Below, piece after piece: positions 1 to 8,387 of a stretch of 8,387 nt of DNA (position 1 is the stretch's first letter; each line of letters begins with the position of its first letter). Below the pieces are notes generated by a model. The model saw only the letters and a program-made list of their open reading frames with translations, was not told the DNA's origin and did no database searches. The stretch is taken from assembly GCA_030671985.1 (NCBI GenBank), contig DAOVHI010000060.1:1-8387 (forward strand). Reading direction: 5' to 3'. The position numbers were made by a program, and so were the translations under genes. The stretch comes from JAHJDO01 sp030671985 [NCBI: bacterium] (GTDB lineage: Bacteria; JAHJDO01).

Positions 1-413
1 CTGGAAGGCATCAGATAAGTATCTCCACACTTTTTATTATATAAATTTTCTGTAAGACGGAATAAACAATATAAAATATCCGTATCTCTCGCCATAAAAA
101 TATAGCGCTGTCCCGGCCAATTATATATCATATTTTCCACTGCCTTTTGTAAATAAGGCATAACAGAATAAAAGGCGTTGATATGTTTTTGAAGCCCCTC
201 TACGCGAAAACCGTACTTGCTATCTTTCAATATATCAGCAGCTTCTTTTGCTTTAATTCCAGTCCTATCCATTAATCCTTTTATCTTTAAAATATCAGGG
301 TAGTCCCCATGATACGCTTTATCTGCCATTTTAATAAACTCAAAAATTCCAATAGAAGACCTTATATTTTTGACCATCCTTTTTATTAATGGGGACAGCG
401 CCTTTTTATTTTC
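1..413 (-). other. Unrecognised module with YIFMARD motif, cut by window edge
   Basis: About 137 residues are visible before the window ends. A helical region (IGIFEFIKMADKAYHGDYPD and onward) precedes a strand-helix pair, WPGQRYIFMARDTDILYCLF (60-119), and a second predicted strand (GDTYLMPS) at the edge. A hydrophobic strand running into Ala-Arg-Asp and a helix, then a strand ending in Ser, recalls the F-L-A-R-D-G and Y-L-x-x-S-R motifs of HAD-like proteins of capsule and surface-polysaccharide clusters. The expected Gly and the rest of the domain are not seen, so this is only a suggestion. Confidence 0.35.
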
Positions 414-3400
414 AACCGGTGAGCTGAAACGGGCTTCGCCCGTCACCAGACACCAGTCATCAGTCACCAGCGATATGCTACTTGTAACTTGTGACCTTGT
501 AACATTGTAATCTTTTACTCCCACTGGTGAACTGGAACCACTTACACTTATGGGTGTTGCGGAGAGGCCGGTACAAGCGCCGGTTCCCTTCCTGCCACGG
601 TAGGATAAACCCCCTCCCAACTGCCCAATAGAACTAATCAGGAACAGGCCCCAATTAAAAATGGGGTTTGTCCTTAATTTTTTACAGTCTAGGAAAGCAT
701 AAAACTTTCCTCGACTACTAGAAAATTCTTTCCTGGCAGCAAAGAAAATACGAGTACCGCCATTTTGGATGGCGGTACGAATTTTCTTGTGAATATGTTT
801 GTAAATAGAATTTATAAAAGTGAAGGTCGAATTTTCCGACGGAGAAAGTGTAAGGAGGGACCGCGCGGTATTTCCGTGTTCCCCGGTGGGTGATGACTGC
901 CGTCCTTTCCCCGATCCGGCCCGGGTAATTTGTTTACTGTTTGCCGACGACTTGTCTGTTGTGGCAGTATCCATTCCGTCCCCAGTCCTTAAAATCGGTG
1001 GTTTATCTCTCTTCACCGGCGAGGAGGCAAAGGCATTATTCTTATCTTCAAAACTAATTATTTTTTCAGTAATGTCGCTCATTTCCGGATGCCGCAGAAC
1101 ATTATAAATAACGGTCTCTATGTTCGGCCAGAAATTTTTTCCCACGAATTTCAAATCATGACGCCTGAGCGCTGCTTCTAAGGTCTCAACGATAGTTTGT
1201 TTGTTTAGATCTAAAACTTCAACCTGAACTTCTTTTCTTAACTCTTCGAATTTTTCCTTCAACTCTGCATTTTGACTTTGTGCAGCTGCTAACTTTTCAC
1301 TTAATCTTCTGCCAATAAATATGAGTGGTGTAGTTTCTCTAGAAACAGGTAAATCGCCCTTAATGTAGAACCAATGCCACTCCCCAAAAGGAAAAATATA
1401 CATATGTCTAGCGAGTTCCAGATTAAATAATGCGTTAAATACGGCGGTGGGCAGAACAATTATATAGCCGTAGCTGTTAACATCTGCATAAACCTTGATA
1501 TCTTCCGCCTCATTGCCAATCAACATAGGATTATCATTTTTAGGAAGCGCAAACTTGCCGTTCAAGATAAAAGCTATAAAATCATCCCCTTCAGCAAATC
1601 TTGCTAAAATGAGATTTTCTTGTTTATCTTGACGAACATAGTAAGAGCCCGGGTAAGGCCCGTTTTCATTTGGCTTTCTTTTTATTCTAGACCGTATAAA
1701 ATCAAGTAATCGCATCGCCTCTTCTTTTACAAGGACAGGCTTTAGCTCAGCCACAACTGCCTCCTCAAAAGTATCTCTGTCTTTAATAGAACTCAAAGAA
1801 AACAATCTTTCTGCCACATTCCATAATATTACCTTTTCTTCTTCCATCGGTGAACTGGATTTTTTTTGCCTTTCTGTTTCTCTCAGTCCAAGATTTTTAA
1901 GTCTTTTACCTAATTCACTGACTTGGCCACTTAGGGTTATTCTATTTTGTTTTGTGAGCTTATCCAGCGCCCGGCAAACAAAAGAATGCAGGTCGTCAAC
2001 GTTTTCCACACTTCCTTTTTTAAAATGCCAATTTGGCGAAACTGCATTTAACTTTCTCCTCTGGCCTATTTTATTTGCCAGCCATTGTCTAAAATCAGGA
2101 TAATACTGAGAAAGGGAACCCCTTACTATAGTTTCTTTATTTAGGACAGGTGAGCTAGAGAGAGAAAATGGGCTGTCAGTTTTCAGCTTAGGCAGGGTTA
2201 TGGTAAAAGTTGTGCCGGATTTCAAAACAGAATCGTACCTTTTGAAATAGTTACTTGAGACTTCTATGCTTCCATTGAATTCCTCCACTATTTTCTTGCA
2301 GTTAGTCAGGCCATGGCCGCGCCCAAACTCGGATGCGTTTGTAAATCCCGGCTCAAATATCTTATCTAAATGCCTCGCTGGAATTCCATAACCGTTATCT
2401 GAAAACCGGATGATATAATTATCTTTGGTCTCTAAAAGTGAGATTTTTATTTCGGGAACCACACCCAAAGATTTCATTAATGACCCATGATCAAGGAAAA
2501 CTCGTGCAGCATTCCAATATAAATTAGAAAATATACACTTCAAACCACGTTTATTTGCTAAAATTAAAGCTTCTTTTATTTCATTCTTATATTTAATTCC
2601 TATATAGTCGCCACCTCTTACTTGCATCCAACCAATCATAGATATTATAAACTCCGATAAGTTAACGGCTGAAAATGTATATACTCTTAAGAAAAAAACT
2701 CTCAATTCGTTAATATCAGAAATTAATCTTTTATTTTCCTTAACTTTCTTTATACCGCTACCAAGAATAGCAGCTATTTCCAACCTTATTTGCCTAATAT
2801 CAATAAGTTTTTTACTTAATAATATCGTATCATCTTCACTTTCTTCAGCTTCCTGACGCAACCCTAAAAGTTCACAAAATTTCGTTTCAATTTTGCTAAT
2901 TTCTTGTTCAGAAAATGTTGATTCTGTTTCCTTCATATAGCGCATAAAATCATGGACACTTATAGTATATAGTTCACTAATTTCCTGCATTAAAATCTTG
3001 AGTAATTCTTTTTTTAACCTTTTTATCTCTTCTGTTGTTTCCTTCTTAAGCCCTTCGCCTTCCGTTAATATCTGCTCAATCCAGCGGGAAGCAATCAAAT
3101 AATTCTGTTTTTTTATTAATTTTTTTATCTTGCTATCGGCAACCGGCGAACTGGAAGCTATCTTTGCTATTACTGACGGATTCGCTATTAATTCCTTGAT
3201 TGCCTTCCTGGCTTCATAGTAGGGATGAAATTGTGTAAGCCTGCAATAACTACCCAAAGTATCATGAAATCTGCGATAACCCGGATAATATTGTCCCAAT
3301 GTCGCGTCTAGTACCCTTATTGTCTTGCCATGTTTGTACGCGGCAATACCATGATCCCTCCGTTTTCCGTTCACCCTGATCTTACCTCCCAAGACACGCG

Positions 3401-6400
3401 CAAGAGTATGCCGTCTCCTTAGGATTATTACAATCTCATCGCTTACACGGCTGCAAAGCCGGCTTGGCTTAATCGCAAGCCGCGGGATTATAGTCATCAT
3501 AAAATCATTGGCATTAAATACTCCGCTATGTAATGCCGCATAAAATATTCTGTATTCTTCTTGTGACAACAATGCTTCATCTTTAAAATACTTCAAGTCG
3601 ATGGCGATATTATCAAGACCGACATAGTGGTATTGCGCCAGTTTAAACTTTCTCCAGATCGATAAGCCATTCTCAAATGCATCTTCCATAATCTGAGATG
3701 CCTCGCTATTTGTTAAAAGCGGAGAACTGGATTCATCTTGTCTTTCTGTCAAGTGTGGAGACCTGACCCTTTTATTTTCATAATAACATTTCGTAATTTT
3801 CCTAACCGGTGTCATGCTTTTTTGAAAAATATCCCAATCACCAACAGTGTCAGAAACATAATCGTTCAATAAAAGTACTGCCTTACCGCTGTCTTCAAAT
3901 CCATACTTGGAAAAAATTATCTTAAGGAGAGGAAAAGTCTTTATGCTGCATGGAAGAACACCAAAATTACTGCTTACAGCTGACAACTCCTCCATTAAAA
4001 TATTAGTCATTAAATAACTTAGATAATTCCCCTGATATAAACTAGCTATCTTTATTCTACAGATAAGAGTTGGCATGTCTGACGGTTGAACAAAACAACG
4101 CACATCGCCAATTATCCCATCAACACAACCATTATAGAAATACAAATGATGATGTGAAAATCCAGATTCATACGTGCCTTCCGCATTAACTCTTTCTATT
4201 AATATCTCGGATAATTCACTTGAATCAGGCAAGATAATAGTATCCCCTAAGTAAACAATACCTACCTGCCCTTGCGATATGTCTCCAACATTCTTGCCGC
4301 GATTAACCCAAGAATATACAGGCCCCAACAAATTATCCGGTTTTACAGGTGAAGAAGCTTTAATCTTATACCGATAAAATAGATCGCTTGATAAAGGCCT
4401 GACCGCCTGAGGGGCCTGATGGACCGGCGAGCTGGAAAATGAAAAAACATTATAAGGAATAAGCCTAGTTTCTTTTAGCACATAAACTCTTTCTGGTTCA
4501 ACTAACCCACTACCCATAAATTCTTGATAGCGCATTTTGATATTTTTTTCTTCGCCAAGCAAAATAATCTTAAAACGATCATCCTTTTTATTAAGGCGCC
4601 TCTTCATTCCAATAATTTCTCTTAAAGAGTTCCTATAGAATTCCATGGGAGGAATATCGATAGAAGAATGATTTGTATCGACAGCGATTATCTGCGGATA
4701 CTCCTCGTCAGGCAAAAGATTACTACTCTTTATAAAATAATAAACCAATAGTGTGATTTCTTTCTGACTATCTACCGTAAAATTATCGCCAAAGATAATC
4801 TTTTCTATAGCATCCCAAAGGCGTTTTGTATCTTGTAAAAAAGGTTTAAGATCCCAATGAACAGGATCAAACGAGATTTTGTTGTCTTTCATAATATTCT
4901 TAGGCAACTTACGGTAAAATAAACGCATGGTGCTCGGATATCTTTGATTCGTTTCCTTTAAAGCGCTAAAACTAATAAGAATATTTGCCTGCTGGATGAT
5001 CTCAAATCCTTTCCCCTGGATTCCAGGAAAAGCATCTATGGCGCATATCACAACACGCTGAGGCCTAAAATTGTTAGCGATTGCCATGGCACAGTTAACA
5101 CAGCTTTCCAACGAAATATAAACAACCGTATCAGACATTGCCCATCCACAATCAATGGCTTGCTTTAACGCGTTTGTCTCTGTGTGTTCATAAAACGATA
5201 TTCCTAATTCCTCATTTCTCCATAAGGGCCTTTCACCCATAATTACTGCTCCGCTCTTTCTATTGACTGCAACAGCTACAATTGGAACTTCACCTTGCCT
5301 CTGTTTTTCTTCTGCTTCTCTTACCAACATCTCCATATACACCATGTCGTTTAAAACTGCCGTTGGCTCTACAAGTAAATTATAAAAAATTTCTAATTGT
5401 TTATACTGGGGTAAAATAAAGAAATAAGGATGGATAAAAATAGACTTTAAACTAAGATCACTAGCAGCGACATAATTATTCGTAAGCTTCAAATCATTTG
5501 TAATAATCAGCTGAAATATTCTTGGTAAAAATAGACTACTAACTCCCCCTTCCTCGAAATCCTGACGCAGAAGAAACCATTGATCTCTAATCACTTGATA
5601 TGGAGGCGCCTGACCTAGAAATTGCTTTAAAAATTCTAACCTCTCTCTTAAAATTCCATAATGATTATCGATAAACTGTCCTGGATTTTGCAAATCAAAA
5701 TCTCTTATCCATATATCTGTAAAAGTTTTATCTCTCCCTGATCTTCTCTCATTTTCTCTTTGAAATTCTGCAGGGACAAATATGGGATAAGTAATTTTCA
5801 CCGGCGAGCTGGAAGAATCAGGGCCTTTTCTGGAGCCGCGGATGATATCGTCAATAACCTTATCCTCTTCCGGGTCCCATCCCCCTCTCTTTTCCTCATC
5901 GTATTCATCGAAATTTAAATCAGTTGGCTTTTTCTTGTTGTAATCAACCGGCGTATCGAGGATAGATTGTATTGTCCTTACGATAAATTGCTTGGATATT
6001 CTTGGGTATTTGGACTTCAGCTTACGACTGACTTGCTTTACGGGCATGCCTTTTCTTAATAATTTTTCGGCTTCTTCCTTTTCTTCAGGCTTTTCTTCAG
6101 GAAAAAGCATCTCCTTATAACTCTTGTCAAACAGCCTCTGAAAAACACCACTTCCATACGTGTATATTGTCGGAGAAAGACCTATGCCGCTTATATCCTC
6201 AATAGAGAGGATACTCCTTAGATTCGGGTACCTCTCTGTAAACGAGAATAATTCCTTTAACAAGCAGCGCCTTAATTCATCCTGGAAGTAAAATAACCTA
6301 ATCAGGCTTATGGCTAAAATATTTAAACTGTCAGTAACTTCCCGGATATCCCTGCCTTCAAAACCCAGGCCGTAACGGGCATAGACATCAGCAAAGGCCT

Positions 6401-8387
6401 GTAGTCCGACAAAATCCTTAACAACACCATCGGCCCCGCGATTCATCTCTTTAAGGTATTTTATAACGCGAAGTAAGCTCTTCTGTATCTTCCCCTTAGA
6501 TCCGCGCGCGCCTTGAGCCACGACATCCGCGACAAGCGCGCTTAACCGCGGGACCCTGCCATGAAAAGCAATAACGCGCGTTAAGCAGGCAAGTGTTTCA
6601 CAAGGTCGCGCCTTTGTAATAAACCTGTGCTCTCTAATCTTTTTCTTTCTTAATTCCATTTTCGCCCGTATACGCACATAAGTCTCTTTATCCTTCCACA
6701 AGGTTGGGATCGTTACACCAAGCCTTTTCGCCAAGCAGACCATGGTTAAATCCTCAAGCCTAGTTGTTTTTATAAAATCGTTGGCTATCTCAATGACCCC
6801 TGGAGTTTTTGATATTTCCCGGATAACATCAGGATGCTTTTTGTATATTCTTGTAGTGGAATAGCCTACATCTATAAGTTCGGCTATTTTCTGAAAGTTA
6901 ATACTTATTCGACTTCCGCCCGTCTCCCTATGACTTATAATTGCTAATATAATCTTTCCGAGAGTATTTTTTTCTTTATCAATAGCTTTATGTAATATCG
7001 AATCGGTTTCTAAATATTTCTTTACTTTGTGTATACCTAATCCTGATTTTTTGGATAAGCCTGCAATGGTTAACCGCACACCTTGCGCCTTGAGATTTTC
7101 TGCCGCCTCCCGTATCTTCTGCTTTATGGTCAACATTACTCCATTATTTGCTTCCTCTATCTCCATCCTTATTACAGGATTATTGTCGATAGCTTTCTCT
7201 ACCATATATGTTGATTTATTAAGCGCTCTGGCAATTGAACGTATTCCGATAGGACGCGTTCTTTCTCTTAATTTCGATATCTCTTCCCTTAATAAGGATA
7301 CTTCCATTTCGTCTCCCACCGGCGAGCTGGCGGGACCAGAAGAAATGGCCGCTGTCCCCTTTTCTATCCAAGAACTAAGAAAGGTGCGTGAATCCAATAA
7401 AGCGCTTCCGGCCTTTTGCCGTGCGTAACCGTATGTTGTTCCATTTCTTCTCTTTCTTAAGGGTAATCTGGTCCCCTCTCGGCTTTTGCTGTGCGCCCCC
7501 AGAGGCGAAGAGGTCTTTCTTCCGGATTCGGACACTCTAAAATTCAACCGCTGATACGCGTAGAGACGGGCATCCTGAACGGCTTCTCTCTGCCATGTGG
7601 CGAGATCCCGCGGCAGCGCCTCCTCATACCCCTTGATGGCTACGAAAAGATTCTCGGTGTATTCCGCGATCATCGCACTCAGAATGAATTCATTTGGTTC
7701 AATCTTCCTCAGATCCTCTTTCTTTAAAAAATACTCCAACTGCTCTTCTTGTGATAGGCCGAAGCGCTTGTGGTTCAACCTACAATACAAGATGCCATAA
7801 TAAAACTGGATGGCATCCGGGAATTGCTTTGAGATCAGGCGAAACACCGCGAGGGTCTCATCAAACCTATTCTGCTCCTTGTGCAGGATAGCTTCACAAA
7901 GGAGGGTACTGAGGGTTTCACGATGCCGCTTGGCCCGGGCAAGAGACTTCAATGCCTTTCTGTATTCGCCGGCATGCAGATAAAGGTAAAACAGCCTGCG
8001 GTGTGCTGCCGAATAGGCGGGATCGAACAGGAGGACCCACTGATAGAGCTGGTTGAGCATACCCCTGTTGCCTCCCCATATAGTCGCTACTTCAGCCATC
8101 CGCAAACACTCCTTTGCCGCTATCTGAGGAGAAAGCCCGCGCGCGGCATCAAGCCATCGACTACTGCGCAACCTCGTGCCGACAAACGGAATCTTCGCAA
8201 CCGGCAAAGAGAACATCATGGATTCCCTCATCCTCCAGTCTACCGCAAGAAAAAGGCAACAACGCACAATATCTGTTGTCTGCCCTAAATTCAAATCTAA
8301 TTCTTTACCGTCCATATAGTCCAGAATTCTGTTGAGTGTCCTCTCCACCTTTTCAATCTTACCCTCCTCAATAAAATACTTGGCCCA
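1..8387 (-). CDS. Giant multi-domain protein joined by SSSPV linkers, partial at both ends
   Basis: One minus-strand frame is open from the first to the last base of the window: 2,795 complete codons with no stop, while each other frame I looked at is interrupted often. The text of the translation is protein-like nearly throughout, with amphipathic helices, recognisable enzyme motifs and charged linkers. Thirteen SSSPV-type linkers all fall in this same frame and cut the chain into modules: TPR-like, helix-turn-helix array, deaminase-like, GNAT-like, histidine kinase and several unrecognised ones. Neither start nor stop lies in the window; the frame already reads as helical protein at 8387. 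No signal peptide or clear transmembrane helix is seen, so a cytoplasmic location is inferred. Giant ORFs of this type are known from candidate phylum Omnitrophota. I do not recognise a named gene. Assembly error is unlikely, because a chimera would rarely keep thirteen linkers in phase. Confidence 0.93.
414..428 (-). repeat. Linker 13, FSSPV
   Basis: TTC AGC TCA CCG GTT, followed by Glu-Asn-Lys-Lys. It ends the low-complexity segment and opens the last module in the window. Confidence 0.8.
430..442. repeat. Small GC-rich hairpin
   Basis: CGGGC-TTC-GCCCG, a perfect 5-base arm with a 3-base loop, two bases beyond linker 13 and touching the 7-base repeats. Confidence 0.65.
443..470. repeat. 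Tandem repeat, four 7-base units of TCACCAG type
   Basis: Plus-strand units TCACCAG, ACACCAG, TCATCAG, TCACCAG, each 7 bases. The reading frame shifts between units yet stays open. Confidence 0.8.
480..509. repeat. Imperfect tandem repeat, ACTTGTA type
   Basis: Four adjacent units on the plus strand: ACTTGTA, ACTTGTG, ACCTTGTA, ACATTGTA (7, 7, 8 and 8 bases). The unit length is not a multiple of three, so the translation does not repeat. Confidence 0.7.
522..536 (-). repeat. Linker 12, SSSPV
   Basis: TCC AGT TCA CCA GTG, flanked by Gly on both sides. It lies inside the low-complexity segment, just ahead of the short tandem repeats. Confidence 0.85.
640..674. repeat. Imperfect inverted repeat (hairpin)
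   Basis: Arms at 640-653 and 662-674 pair through AGGA, CA and CCCCA, with one bulged base, two G-U pairs on the plus-strand RNA (A-C mismatches on the minus-strand RNA) and an 8-base A/T-rich loop. It is therefore more stable on the strand opposite the gene. Confidence 0.65.
687..715. repeat. Inverted repeat (hairpin)
   Basis: Arms GTC-x-AGGAAAG and CTTTCCT-x-GAC (687-697 and 705-715) with one mismatch and a 7-base loop. It lies between the hairpins at 640-674 and 742-788. Confidence 0.75.
742..788. repeat. Long inverted repeat (hairpin)
   Basis: An outer arm of 8 bases (742-749 with 781-788), an asymmetric internal loop (4 and 2 bases), a perfect inner arm of 10 bases (754-763 with 769-778, GTACCGCCAT) and a 5-base loop. 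It resembles a terminator or REP-like palindrome but lies inside the open frame and has no clean T-run after it. Confidence 0.85.
885..899 (-). repeat. Linker 11, QSSPT (degenerate)
   Basis: CAG TCA TCA CCC ACC: the Ser-Ser-Pro core is kept, with Gln and Thr at the ends. It sits in the low-complexity segment, 129 bases after linker 10 in translation order. Confidence 0.5.
1014..1028 (-). repeat. Linker 10, ASSPV
   Basis: GCC TCC TCG CCG GTG, followed by a basic stretch. It marks the passage from folded-looking protein to the low-complexity, hairpin-rich segment. Confidence 0.85.
1029..1844 (-). other. Unrecognised mixed alpha/beta module with coiled coil
   Basis: About 272 residues. An acidic helical start (EEEKVILWNVAERLFSLSS) leads to a beta-rich centre with many aromatic residues (FPFGEWHWFYIKGDLP, about 1350-1400). 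A long coiled-coil helix follows at about 1164-1310 (KLAAAQSQNAELKEKFEELR), then a short helical end. The order of sensor-like beta domain and signalling helix would suit an input module for the kinase that lies 300 bases upstream in the chain. That link is a guess from order alone. No family is recognised. Confidence 0.42.
1845..1859 (-). repeat. Linker 9, SSSPM
   Basis: TCC AGT TCA CCG ATG, followed by Glu-Glu-Glu. Met replaces Val, which also supplies an in-frame ATG at the start of the next module. Confidence 0.8.
1860..2144 (-). other. Short unrecognised module with one LxQYYP motif
   Basis: About 95 residues between linkers 8 and 9. It begins with LSQYYPDFRQWLANKIG (from 2114 down to about 2064), which repeats a motif of the module at 3156-3716. 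It continues with a polar, Lys/Arg-rich helix (SELGKRLKNLGLRETERQKK). It is too short to hold a large enzyme, and could be a small adaptor or a partial copy of the other LxQYYP module. Confidence 0.4.
2145..2159 (-). repeat. Linker 8, SSSPV
   Basis: TCT AGC TCA CCT GTC, directly after a serine-rich tail of the kinase module (TDSPFSL). Confidence 0.85.
2160..3140 (-). other. Soluble histidine kinase module (dimerisation helices plus HATPase_c)
   Basis: About 327 residues. A coiled-coil-like lead (about 2970-3080) precedes a helix with YTISVHDFMRYM, in which His (codon 2952-2954) is the candidate phospho-acceptor. The ATP-binding domain has every box in order: the N box NLYWNAARVF (2496-2525), the G1 box DNGYGIP (2379-2399), the F box IFEPGFT (about 2340-2360), the G2 box GRGHGL (2307-2324), and the final strand SGTTFTITLP (2190-2219). 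Sensor kinases autophosphorylate the His and pass the phosphate to a response regulator. Here no membrane helix, PAS/GAF sensor or receiver domain is attached in the neighbouring modules, so the signal must come from elsewhere in the chain or from a partner. The kinase class is unclear because the H box lacks the usual HELRxPL. The DNA is very AT-rich (13 G/C in the 60 bases at 2521-2580). Confidence 0.88.
3141..3155 (-). repeat. Linker 7, SSSPV
   Basis: TCC AGT TCG CCG GTT, preceded by Ala and followed by Ala-Asp. It opens the histidine kinase module. Confidence 0.85.
3156..3716 (-). other. Unrecognised module with LxQYYP motifs
   Basis: About 187 residues. A helical first half (EASQIMEDAFENGLSIWRKF) is followed by a strongly basic middle (ILRRRHTLARVLGGKIRVNG, about 3360-3430). 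At its end two related motifs lie 60 bases apart: LGQYYPGYR at 3273-3299 and LTQFHPYYE at 3213-3239. A third, LSQYYPDFR, occurs in the next but one module (2088-2114). The Arg/Lys-rich middle could contact nucleic acid. I do not recognise a family. Confidence 0.45.
3717..3731 (-). repeat. Linker 6, SSSPL
   Basis: TCC AGT TCT CCG CTT; Leu replaces the final Val. It separates the GNAT-like module from an unrecognised one. Confidence 0.8.
3732..4343 (-). other. GNAT acetyltransferase-like module
   Basis: About 204 residues. The central part reads as the core of a GNAT fold. A strand (PTLICRIKIASLY) runs straight into Q-G-N-Y-L (4023-4034), in the place of the acetyl-CoA-binding R/Q-x-x-G-x-G/A loop. 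A long helix follows (SYLMTNILMEELSAVSS), then further on PLLKIIFSKYGFED (3888-3929), equivalent to the 'x-x-Y-x-K-x-G-F' ending of GNAT enzymes. The first 90 residues (VGIVYLGDTIILPDSS and onward) include strands consistent with the front of the sheet. The loop is degenerate: the second Gly is replaced. The domain could therefore bind CoA weakly or be a structural relative. The last 40 residues before linker 6 are basic and disordered-looking. Confidence 0.5.
4344..4358 (-). repeat. Linker 5, ASSPV
   Basis: Spelled with codons unlike the common form (GCT TCT TCA CCT GTA), which shows that the amino acids rather than the bases are kept. Confidence 0.85.
4359..4421 (-). other. Very short spacer between two linkers
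   Basis: Twenty-one residues (HQAPQAVRPLSSDLFYRYKIK) sit between linkers 4 and 5. This is too short for a domain. It is either a hinge or the remnant of a lost module. Confidence 0.45.
4422..4436 (-). repeat. Linker 4, SSSPV
   Basis: Canonical copy (TCC AGC TCG CCG GTC), directly after a Phe. Only 78 bases separate it from linker 5. Confidence 0.85.
4437..4964 (-). other. Region following the deaminase domain, unrecognised
   Basis: About 176 residues between the deaminase core and linker 4. It looks like a mixed alpha/beta fold with predicted strands such as YPQIIAVDT and FKIILLGEEKN alternating with helices (PPMEFYRNSLREIIGMKRR). The strand-helix alternation hints at a Rossmann-like or nucleotide-handling fold, but no glycine-rich loop or other diagnostic motif is present. 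It shows no resemblance to the RibD reductase domain that I can see. Confidence 0.4.
4965..5345 (-). other. Cytidine/deoxycytidylate deaminase-like domain (RibD/TadA-like)
   Basis: About 127 residues with the layout of the zinc-dependent CDA superfamily. A first helix and strand read EAEEKQRQGEVPIVAVAVNR. The zinc-ligand and catalytic motif is His-Thr-Glu (5178-5186, the family's HAE). Next comes YISLESCVNC, with zinc-ligand cysteines encoded at 5100-5102 and 5091-5093 (the family's PCxxC). After that RVVICAID and GKGFEII (4995-5015) resemble the segment that follows the cysteines in the riboflavin enzyme RibD, where G-K-G also occurs. All three zinc ligands and the catalytic Glu are present, so activity is plausible. 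The usual Pro before the first Cys is Ser here. The short C-x-x-C spacing is TadA/dCMP-deaminase-like, whereas RibD has a longer C-to-C spacing. Substrate is unknown; a free nucleotide, a pterin/pyrimidine intermediate or RNA are all possible. No reductase domain of RibD follows. Confidence 0.8.
5346..5798 (-). other. Region ahead of the deaminase domain, unrecognised
   Basis: About 150 residues between linker 3 and the deaminase core. It begins basic and polar (RENERRSGRDK), then becomes a mixed alpha/beta sequence with many aromatic residues (SIFIHPYFFILPQYK). It may be an N-terminal extension of the deaminase module or a small separate domain. No motif is recognised. Confidence 0.4.
5799..5816 (-). 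repeat. Linker 3, SSSSPV
   Basis: Extended copy with four serines, ending CCG GTG, preceded by an acidic tail and followed by Lys-Ile-Thr. It separates the helix-turn-helix array from the deaminase region. Confidence 0.85.
5949..6077 (-). other. Helix-turn-helix-like unit 5
   Basis: The segment reads LLRKGMPVKQVSRKLKSKYP followed by a second amphipathic helix with VRTIQSIL. The phrase 'LLRKGMPVKQVSRKL' is typical of the first two helices of helix-turn-helix domains in which a Gly-x-Pro/x turn precedes the recognition helix. It is followed by an acidic tail (5817-5948; EYDEEKRGGWDPEEDK) that runs into linker 3. Confidence 0.5.
6078..6629 (-). other. Helical region between helix-turn-helix units, unrecognised
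   Basis: About 184 residues of mainly helical, Leu/Ile/Arg-rich sequence joining unit 4 to the last helix-turn-helix-like unit. It starts with an Arg/Ala-rich part (ALVADVVAQGARGSKGK) and ends with an acidic Glu/Lys/Pro stretch near 6060-6110. One stretch (SLNILAISLIRLFYF, about 6280-6325) is hydrophobic but too short and too charged at its ends to be called a membrane helix. The DNA here is locally GC-rich: I count 37 G/C in the 60 bases at 6481-6540. I do not recognise the family. Confidence 0.4.
6630..7256 (-). other. Tandem helix-turn-helix-like units 1-4
   Basis: Four consecutive units share the layout of a short helix with I-A/L-A, a turn, a recognition-type helix, then a charged tail. 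They are unit 1 at 7167-7256 (IGIRSIARALNKSTYMVEKA), unit 2 at about 6972-7079 (TIAGLSKKSGLGIHKVKKYL), unit 3 at 6813-6908 (FQKIAELIDVGYSTTRIYKK) and unit 4 at 6630-6758 (VCLAKRLGVTIPTLWKD). Each has the typical small residue, a Gly in the turn in units 2-4, and a Ser/Thr starting the second helix. Such units usually bind DNA, as in TetR/LuxR-like or sigma-4-like helices. An array of four inside a giant protein suggests multivalent DNA binding or a degenerate repeat used as a scaffold. The call rests on pattern, not on alignment to a named family. Confidence 0.62.
7305..7316 (-). promoter_or_regulatory. Possible internal ribosome binding site and ATG
   Basis: Just after linker 2 the minus strand carries GGAG, five bases, then an in-frame ATG (complement of 7305-7307). 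The spacing fits a Shine-Dalgarno start, which would let the helix-turn-helix module be made separately. One GGAG next to one ATG in 8 kb is also expected by chance, so this is weak. Confidence 0.2.
7317..7331 (-). repeat. Linker 2, ASSPV
   Basis: Linker copy spelled GCC TCG-type serines, CCG and GTG, preceded by Gly-Pro and followed by Gly-Asp-Glu. It opens the helix-turn-helix array. Confidence 0.8.
7332..7499 (-). other. Basic low-complexity interdomain segment
   Basis: About 56 residues between linkers 1 and 2, rich in Arg, Lys, Gly and Ser (for example LPLRKRRNG and YARQKAGSA). No fold is recognisable. It looks like a flexible hinge between the TPR-like module and the helix-turn-helix array. 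A nucleic-acid or membrane-surface contact through the Arg/Lys cluster is possible but not shown. Confidence 0.5.
7500..7514 (-). repeat. Linker 1, TSSPL
   Basis: First and most divergent copy of the linker in translation order. It closes the TPR-like module and opens a basic low-complexity stretch. Proline codon CCT, with Leu in place of Val. Confidence 0.6.
7515..8387 (-). other. TPR-like helical repeat module
   Basis: This is the first part of the chain within the window (residues about 1-290 of the visible fragment). It is almost entirely alpha-helical in character. Paired helices resembling tetratricopeptide repeats are visible around 7924-8066 (LHAGEYRKALKSLARAKR, with the small-residue G/A and aromatic Y pattern), around 7765-7905 (NRFDETLAVFRLISKQFPD) and around 7540-7700 (TENLFVAIKGYEEALPRD). 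TPR modules bind other proteins and often act as scaffolds. It ends at the first linker. It is more GC-rich than the kinase part of the gene. The match is to the general TPR pattern rather than to a specific family; the more N-terminal part (8070-8387) is helical but without clear repeats. Confidence 0.6.

Follow-up and report, generated by a model that had tools for sequence, protein, structure and literature searches.

Does a reading frame that crosses a whole contig without a stop codon belong to a real giant gene and, if so, how might its product be organised? The question is raised by the window analysed here, a stretch of 8,387 nucleotides that is the entire contig C55 of a fragmented bin (G000; 1,253,468 bases in 152 contigs, 92% complete, 1.4% contamination).

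An open frame that runs past the window

One minus-strand frame (frame 0, positions 3 to 8387) contains no stop in 2,795 codons, as the first-pass annotation of this DNA had claimed, compared with 112 to 239 stops in each of the other five frames. From the frame's own codon-position composition 128 stops would be expected (log10 P of no stop, -57), and from plain base composition 196 (log10 P, -88). With a chance of ~1e-57 or less, a fortuitous or non-coding open frame is ruled out, and we conclude that a real giant gene passes through the window, which covers its middle part. Besides this frame, just two ORFs of at least 100 amino acids are found in the window, of 133 and 135 amino acids and both on the plus strand. 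The giant frame itself enters an ORF list only when open ends are allowed, which bears out the remark that an ordinary listing hides it.

The first 141 bases of the window (1 to 141) are identical, as reverse complement, to the start of contig C98 (C98 1 to 141), and the frame continues through this overlap and stays open through all 4,999 bases of C98. When joined, the two contigs give a frame of 4,415 codons (13.2 kb) without a stop and still open at both ends, so the frame seen in the window, which has neither start nor stop, belongs to a gene no shorter than 4,415 codons. Both gene ends had been placed outside the window, and they remain out of reach after joining. Extension of the contig, which had been suggested as a check, was successful at the left end, where the frame passes into C98; it reached no start or stop, and no contig in the bin matched the outer ends of C55 and C98 as a neighbour. 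We read the 141-base overlap as the kind left by assemblers at a fork. Among 62 contigs compared (4 of these to 20 kb), an end overlap of 141 bases was unique to this pair.

The contigs read were 62 of the bin's 152 (615,538 bases, 4 of them to 20 kb), a non-random sample because C86 and C25 were chosen for having at least two matches to the DNA word of the joint described below. Four of the 62 are open from end to end: C55, C98, C86 (2,211 codons) and C25 (1,364 codons). If C86 and C25 belong to the same gene as C55 and C98, the total open length would be 24 kb. The earlier interpretation thus holds with respect to the giant gene, while it had overlooked the continuation into C98, the sister contigs C86 and C25 and the peptide punctuation to which we now turn.

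A recurrent SSSPV joint separates dissimilar stretches

Across the giant frames of C55+C98, C86 and C25, a peptide of the form [S/A]-S-S-P-[V/I/L/M] lies at 29 places and separates stretches of differing sequence. The sites comprise 28 SSP and one SASP, and since they were picked by SSP or SASP, degenerate joints are missed. Those in the window, all on the minus strand, are joint 1 (T-S-S-P-L, 7500 to 7514), joint 2 (A-S-S-P-V, 7317 to 7331, with a longer linker also present in C98), joint 3 (S-S-S-P-V, 5799 to 5813), joint 4 (S-S-S-P-V, 4422 to 4436), joint 5 (A-S-S-P-V, 4344 to 4358), joint 6 (S-S-S-P-L, 3717 to 3731), joint 7 (S-S-S-P-V, 3141 to 3155), joint 8 (S-S-S-P-V, 2145 to 2159), joint 9 (S-S-S-P-M, 1845 to 1859), joint 10 (A-S-S-P-V, 1014 to 1028), joint 11 (Q-S-S-P-T, 885 to 899), joint 12 (S-S-S-P-V, 522 to 536) and joint 13 (F-S-S-P-V, 414 to 428). 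Spacing within C55+C98 runs from 26 to 506 residues, so the joints are not a regular repeat. They divide C55+C98 into 16 stretches of 100 to 506 residues, or 23 stretches of up to 1,285 residues when C86 and C25 are added.

The 7,990 residues of the giant frames contain 28 SSP, against a mean of 1.24 and a maximum of 6 in 2,000 shuffles, and no other tripeptide is as over-represented, SPV and SSS coming next. Conservation at the SSP or SASP positions themselves follows from how the sites were selected; at the positions that were not selected (+1 and, save for the one SASP, -3), S stands at -3 in 18 of the 29 joints and V at +1 in 16, with V, I, L or M at +1 in 24. For comparison we used 573 ORFs of at least 150 codons from the other 58 contigs (189,661 residues, antisense shadows included). 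These hold 41 SSP in total and never more than 2 per ORF, a rate of 0.22 per 1,000 amino acids against 3.48 in the giant frames (16-fold). The surroundings of SSP differ as well: the residue at +1 is aliphatic in 23/28 giant-frame sites versus 12/41 in other ORFs (p 2e-5), and the residue at -3 is S or A in 21/28 versus 6/41 (p 7e-7). For the tetrapeptide SSSP the counts are 17 in the giant frames and 3 in the 573 other ORFs.

Is the joint conserved as a peptide or as a piece of DNA? In the +1 codon, T stands at position 2 in 24/29 and G at position 1 in 18/29, but the information at position 3 is below 0.4 bits. Conservation of the first two positions of this codon, and not of the third, suggests selection on the residue at +1. 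Serine codon families are also mixed, several joints having different serine codon orders. At the same time joint codons are biased, with TCC at -3 in 12/18 (11% elsewhere), TCG or TCA at -1 in 22/29 (27% elsewhere) and CCG in 19/29 (29% elsewhere); bias at -2 was not significant (p 0.09). Likeness among joints may therefore be due in part to common DNA descent. A linker at 7318 to 7358 of C55 is 82% alike over 44 nt to one at 824 to 867 of C98. The codon-position pattern weakens, without eliminating, a translated DNA repeat as the whole explanation. In the simplest account, short DNA copies of the joint spread along with modules or between them and were later held at the peptide level.

Searches with the joint were of uneven use. 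A first search of the bin's own genome with the joint motif was noisy (47 matches vs 28 for a reversed control). Of nine own-genome matches to the joint DNA word, eight lie within giant-frame contigs, a result compatible with either a peptide or a DNA reading. Raw counts of the word in 385 genomes do not discriminate, because many genomes equal or exceed the count of the own genome (up to 17). When four genomes with strand bias or a high count were mapped, none had a short contig with at least three matches.

Modules carried by the giant chain

Fifteen stretches between joints of C55 and C98 were scanned singly, a set that does not include the short ones between close joints. Three stretches reach the Pfam cut-off, two have weaker matches and 10/15 have no match better than E 0.02. 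In C55, the recognised regions are TPR-like helices at residues 118 to 158 (TPR_19, E 1.7e-5; 7914 to 8036), an HTH_38-like helix-turn-helix (E 3.8e-5; 7209 to 7289), a TadA/MafB19-type deaminase domain (E 4e-10; 5043 to 5345) and an ATPase domain of the GHKL (histidine-kinase) type (E 9e-19; 2187 to 2549), all on the minus strand; five other C55 stretches gave nothing better than E 0.02. In the deaminase, CxxC aligns with TadA, and an HTE is offset by three residues from the HxE column of the ungapped alignment. The DNGYGI and GRGHGL of the ATPase align with sensor-kinase boxes, and by eye no clear phospho-acceptor His helix accompanies them. C98 has a receiver domain slightly under the cut-off (E 4.7e-6; C98 2570 to 2869), and nothing better than 0.05 was found in five other C98 stretches. 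A scan of the whole of C86 brought up a low-molecular-weight tyrosine phosphatase domain (E 4e-7) as well as a stretch resembling uridine kinase (E 2e-5), and a scan of C25 gave nothing convincing.

The first-pass annotation had described a mixture of signalling, DNA-binding-like and enzyme-like modules. The ATPase and the deaminase agree with the first and the last of these, and the DNA-binding-like module has the HTH_38 match in its favour, which lies below Pfam's own cut-off. Its statement that repeats of adhesins and units of polyketide synthases are lacking also stands for the scans made. Among the matches listed there is no ketosynthase, acyltransferase, adenylation or condensation domain and no adhesin domain, and we reject a PKS/NRPS megasynthase and an adhesin as identities of the product. 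Anti-phage defence was likewise rejected, the single PADLOC match being to the C98 receiver region (E 3e-5). Giant genes reportedly often carry SecA domains, according to a preprint; no SecA, adhesin or carbohydrate-active family is among the Pfam and NCBIfam matches listed here. No RNA gene was found in the four contigs, none of which matches an Rfam family at its gathering score. No joint lies inside a recognised domain, a count that is not significant because by our own sum these domains cover ~7% of the length.

Some resemblances were noticed by eye and have no search support: a transglutaminase- or papain-like pattern near residues 1650 to 1700, where the structural model has a pLDDT of 39, and acetyltransferase-like modules near 1440 to 1500 and at C98 ~1300 to 1360. 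Structure predictions made without relatives reached pLDDT 39 and 35. GC3 varies among modules with an SD of 0.072, compared with 0.049 in ordinary genes matched for length (an SD of 0.072 is reached in 2.5% of resamples), too weak a signal for us to adopt a mosaic origin of the modules.

The best solved match of the C98 receiver is 9xzo, a designed receiver-like protein, and in our reading of that alignment the phospho-acceptor column holds Asn, not Asp. This Asn-bearing receiver shares one giant chain with the GHKL ATPase that has no obvious phospho-acceptor helix. In C86, residues 316 to 1600 are 1,285 residues free of joints in which helical motifs recur by eye (LSLRADA, AAENFRAL), unlike the rest.

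Relatives of the gene and its owner

No relative of the giant gene suitable for a test of conservation was found among congeners, 384 genomes, IMG/VR, plasmids or phages. The comparison set includes five genomes from the phylum of the bin, all of one genus. For residues 1 to 853 of C98, no homolog was found at E 1e-4 in the 384 other genomes. A search of a collection of genome contigs returned one match, in the kinase region; of 37 plasmid records with a match, each of the 12 listed has it in the kinase region; the one match among phage records is to the ATPase domain; and scans of IMG/VR with short peptide patterns produced no relative. PHROG families matched the ATPase, deaminase, receiver and phosphatase regions of the four contigs, and one further match, a weak one (E 0.016), lies in another part of C98. 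The function of most of the families is not known, and no family name among them refers to a structural protein or a polymerase.

It is quite possible, although we lean the other way, that the four contigs belong to another community member with giant genes, for example from the Omnitrophota or Elusimicrobiota, and were placed in the wrong bin. We consider this because C55 matches its four congeners at E 1e-5 through kinase-type domains only, because the tetranucleotide composition of the four contigs is mildly deviant (0.8 to 1.5 SD further from the bin mean than length-matched pieces), because in-frame codon log-odds are low (median 0.04 to 0.05 in the giant frames vs 0.11 in the bin's genes) and because every one of 150 ordinary chunks outscores the first 250-codon chunk of C55. 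Further points in the same direction are that C86 has no match in the four congeners at E 0.01, that codon preferences differ (e.g., AGG 0.28 vs 0.17 in the bin) and that the longest ORF in the 58 remaining contigs read stops at 1,134 codons. However, all four contigs are within the tetranucleotide range of ordinary fragments, their mean codon scores are within the range of ordinary chunks, though this score hardly separates frames, and four pieces of one kind fell into the same bin. The origin of the contigs bears on the owner of the gene and not on the mechanism considered next.

A proposed single chain punctuated by joints

If modules were translated separately, ribosome-binding starts might be expected after the joints. 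Among the 29 joints, 7% are followed within 40 codons by a start with a five-base ribosome-binding match; the figure is 6% for randomly chosen places in the giant frames and 27% for a set of 460 ordinary genes. Four-base matches narrow the gap (joints 34%, random places 29%, ordinary genes 58%). There being no excess after joints, we disfavour separate translation of the modules, and the giant frame may well be translated as one chain.

We tentatively favour the reading that this chain is a polyprotein-like string of modules in which the joints are recognised punctuation, most likely sites of cutting. Under this proposal, the giant gene would be translated as a single chain, giving a bacterial counterpart of a polyprotein, and each exposed joint would be a mark recognised by something specific, most probably a protease supplied by the cell or by the chain itself and less probably a partner that docks on, or an enzyme that modifies, the intact chain. 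Cleavage would then be expected at the joints. The gene may have grown by duplication of module-plus-joint units, as in C86 and C25, and also by absorbing intergenic-like DNA that was kept open. The duplicated modules are 31% alike over residues 1578 to 1883 of C86 and 419 to 694 of C25, and the likeness takes in the joint KADSKDKSSSPVDEG. We observed a nucleotide-binding loop, GLGASGKST, in these paralogous modules (C86 1578 to 2046, C25 419 to 937), which are duplicated together with their SSSPV joint. By analogy with the giant ORFs of host-attached Omnitrophota, the likeliest role, which is a guess, would be delivery of effector-like enzymes or interaction with other cells. In its fullest form, the proposal would describe a cellular mega-polyprotein of at least 4,400 and perhaps more than 8,000 codons, from which about two dozen enzymes and signalling modules are cut free at a universal SSP-V joint and which grows by module-plus-joint cassettes and by intergenic DNA kept open; we consider this full form unlikely as a whole.

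The chief rival is an intact giant scaffold, in which SSSPV would be an exposed spacer, a docking motif or a modification site (e.g., for proline-directed phosphorylation or glycosylation). The flanks of the joints are prone to disorder (fraction of disorder-promoting residues, 0.71 vs 0.62), a point that also supports the reading we favour, and for the giant ORFs of Velamenicoccia the published account describes perhaps single mRNAs, and peptides mapped to the giant ORF of V. archaeovorus (PMC10066038). However, simple spacing would not call for identical residues, four or five of them, at each joint, and a docking or modification site has no known receptor or modifying enzyme here. We regard the intact scaffold as possible, if somewhat doubtful.

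Improbable in our estimation is that the joint is mainly a DNA feature, with copies of TCCAGYTCRCCGGT serving the insertion or shuffling of modules and being read through with little meaning for the protein. The codon bias at joints, the likeness of the C55 and C98 linkers, the duplication of module plus joint between C86 and C25 and the hairpin-rich intergenic-like DNA inside the frame (see below) are all in keeping with it, but conservation of +1 at the first two codon positions and not the third, together with the joints that use other serine codon orders, argues for meaning in the peptide. Very improbable is a polyprotein of phage origin, comparable to the giant ORFs for RNA polymerase in crAss-like phages: phages do have giant ORFs (PMC6235969), but RNA-polymerase domains and phage hallmark genes would be expected, none of which is so named in the PHROG matches here, no relative turned up in the IMG/VR scans with short peptide patterns and the one match in phage records is to the ATPase domain. 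An assembly chimera or chance open frame is scarcely credible even with contig ends that are still open, given the ~1e-57 calculated above and the recurrence of the same motif and openness on four separate contigs.

Comparison with known giant genes

Our preferred reading, a chain punctuated for cutting, resembles viral-type polyproteins in having one frame, many different parts, a recurring short joint sequence and no excess of internal ribosome-binding starts. It is unlike them in that the domains are of cellular type and no protease was identified. PKS and NRPS are likewise giant modular bacterial enzymes, but none of their domains is among the matches listed here. In a survey of huge proteins, the major bacterial clusters are NRPS/PKS, followed by surface proteins (PMC11573180).

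The size of the gene is not new in itself, since giant ORFs have been described in Omnitrophota and related lineages (PMC10066038, PMC12057145). Giant ORFs of more than 20 kb are reported in 77/116 Velamenicoccia genomes, and that of V. archaeovorus has 39,678 residues and 42 transmembrane helices (PMC10066038). Proteins of up to 85,800 residues are also on record, with Omnitrophota, Elusimicrobia and CG03 named among the lineages (PMC12057145). The giant ORFs of Omnitrophota (Velamenicoccia) and related PVC bacteria are similar to ours in their very long frames, uncultured genomes, few domains and poor conservation (PMC10066038, PMC12057145). Unlike the V. archaeovorus ORF as described, ours has in its known part three marginal hydropathy peaks (1.64 to 1.69) in 7,990 amino acids, and unlike the Omnitrophota giant ORFs it has SSSPV punctuation. 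Domains for adhesion or carbohydrate degradation are present in some of the Omnitrophota ORFs and rare in others, while none is among the matches listed here.

Titles and the openings of abstracts in the literature on giant genes, giant proteins, polyproteins and linkers, a scope that excludes preprints, contained no report of joint punctuation, and among the matches listed for "SSSPV" none was on bacterial giant proteins by its title. How giant bacterial genes function, and whether the proteins they encode stay whole, is an open question, and one account states that the post-transcriptional integrity of giant gene products remains unclear (PMC12057145). A uniform joint peptide offers a handle on this question. 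From its positions one can predict the new termini to be expected in proteomics, and searches with it could reach related giant genes even where no domain homology is shared.

A stretch resembling intergenic DNA within the frame

From joint 10 to joint 13 (residues 2458 to 2656; 420 to 1016, minus strand), the sequence looks like intergenic DNA, and the frame seems to have been held open across it. Between 420 and 1016 the gene frame has 0 stops and each other frame 5 to 12 (P about 2e-5). We rejected a profile of codon log-odds as a marker of non-coding stretches because 26% of ordinary 60-codon windows also score below 0.05. The window has somewhat more promoter-like sites than shuffles do (31 vs 20.2, sd 5.2), a point against the polyprotein-like reading, and 10 terminator-like sites were counted vs 6.5 in shuffles, one hairpin being flagged as terminator-like on both strands. 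Within the open frame, the segment from 620 to 860 (minus strand) is rich in hairpins (-70.9 kcal/mol, z -5.8), with 0/200 shuffles as stable. The hairpins of this segment are strong and lie inside the coding frame, one of them having a stem of 10 to 11 pairs.
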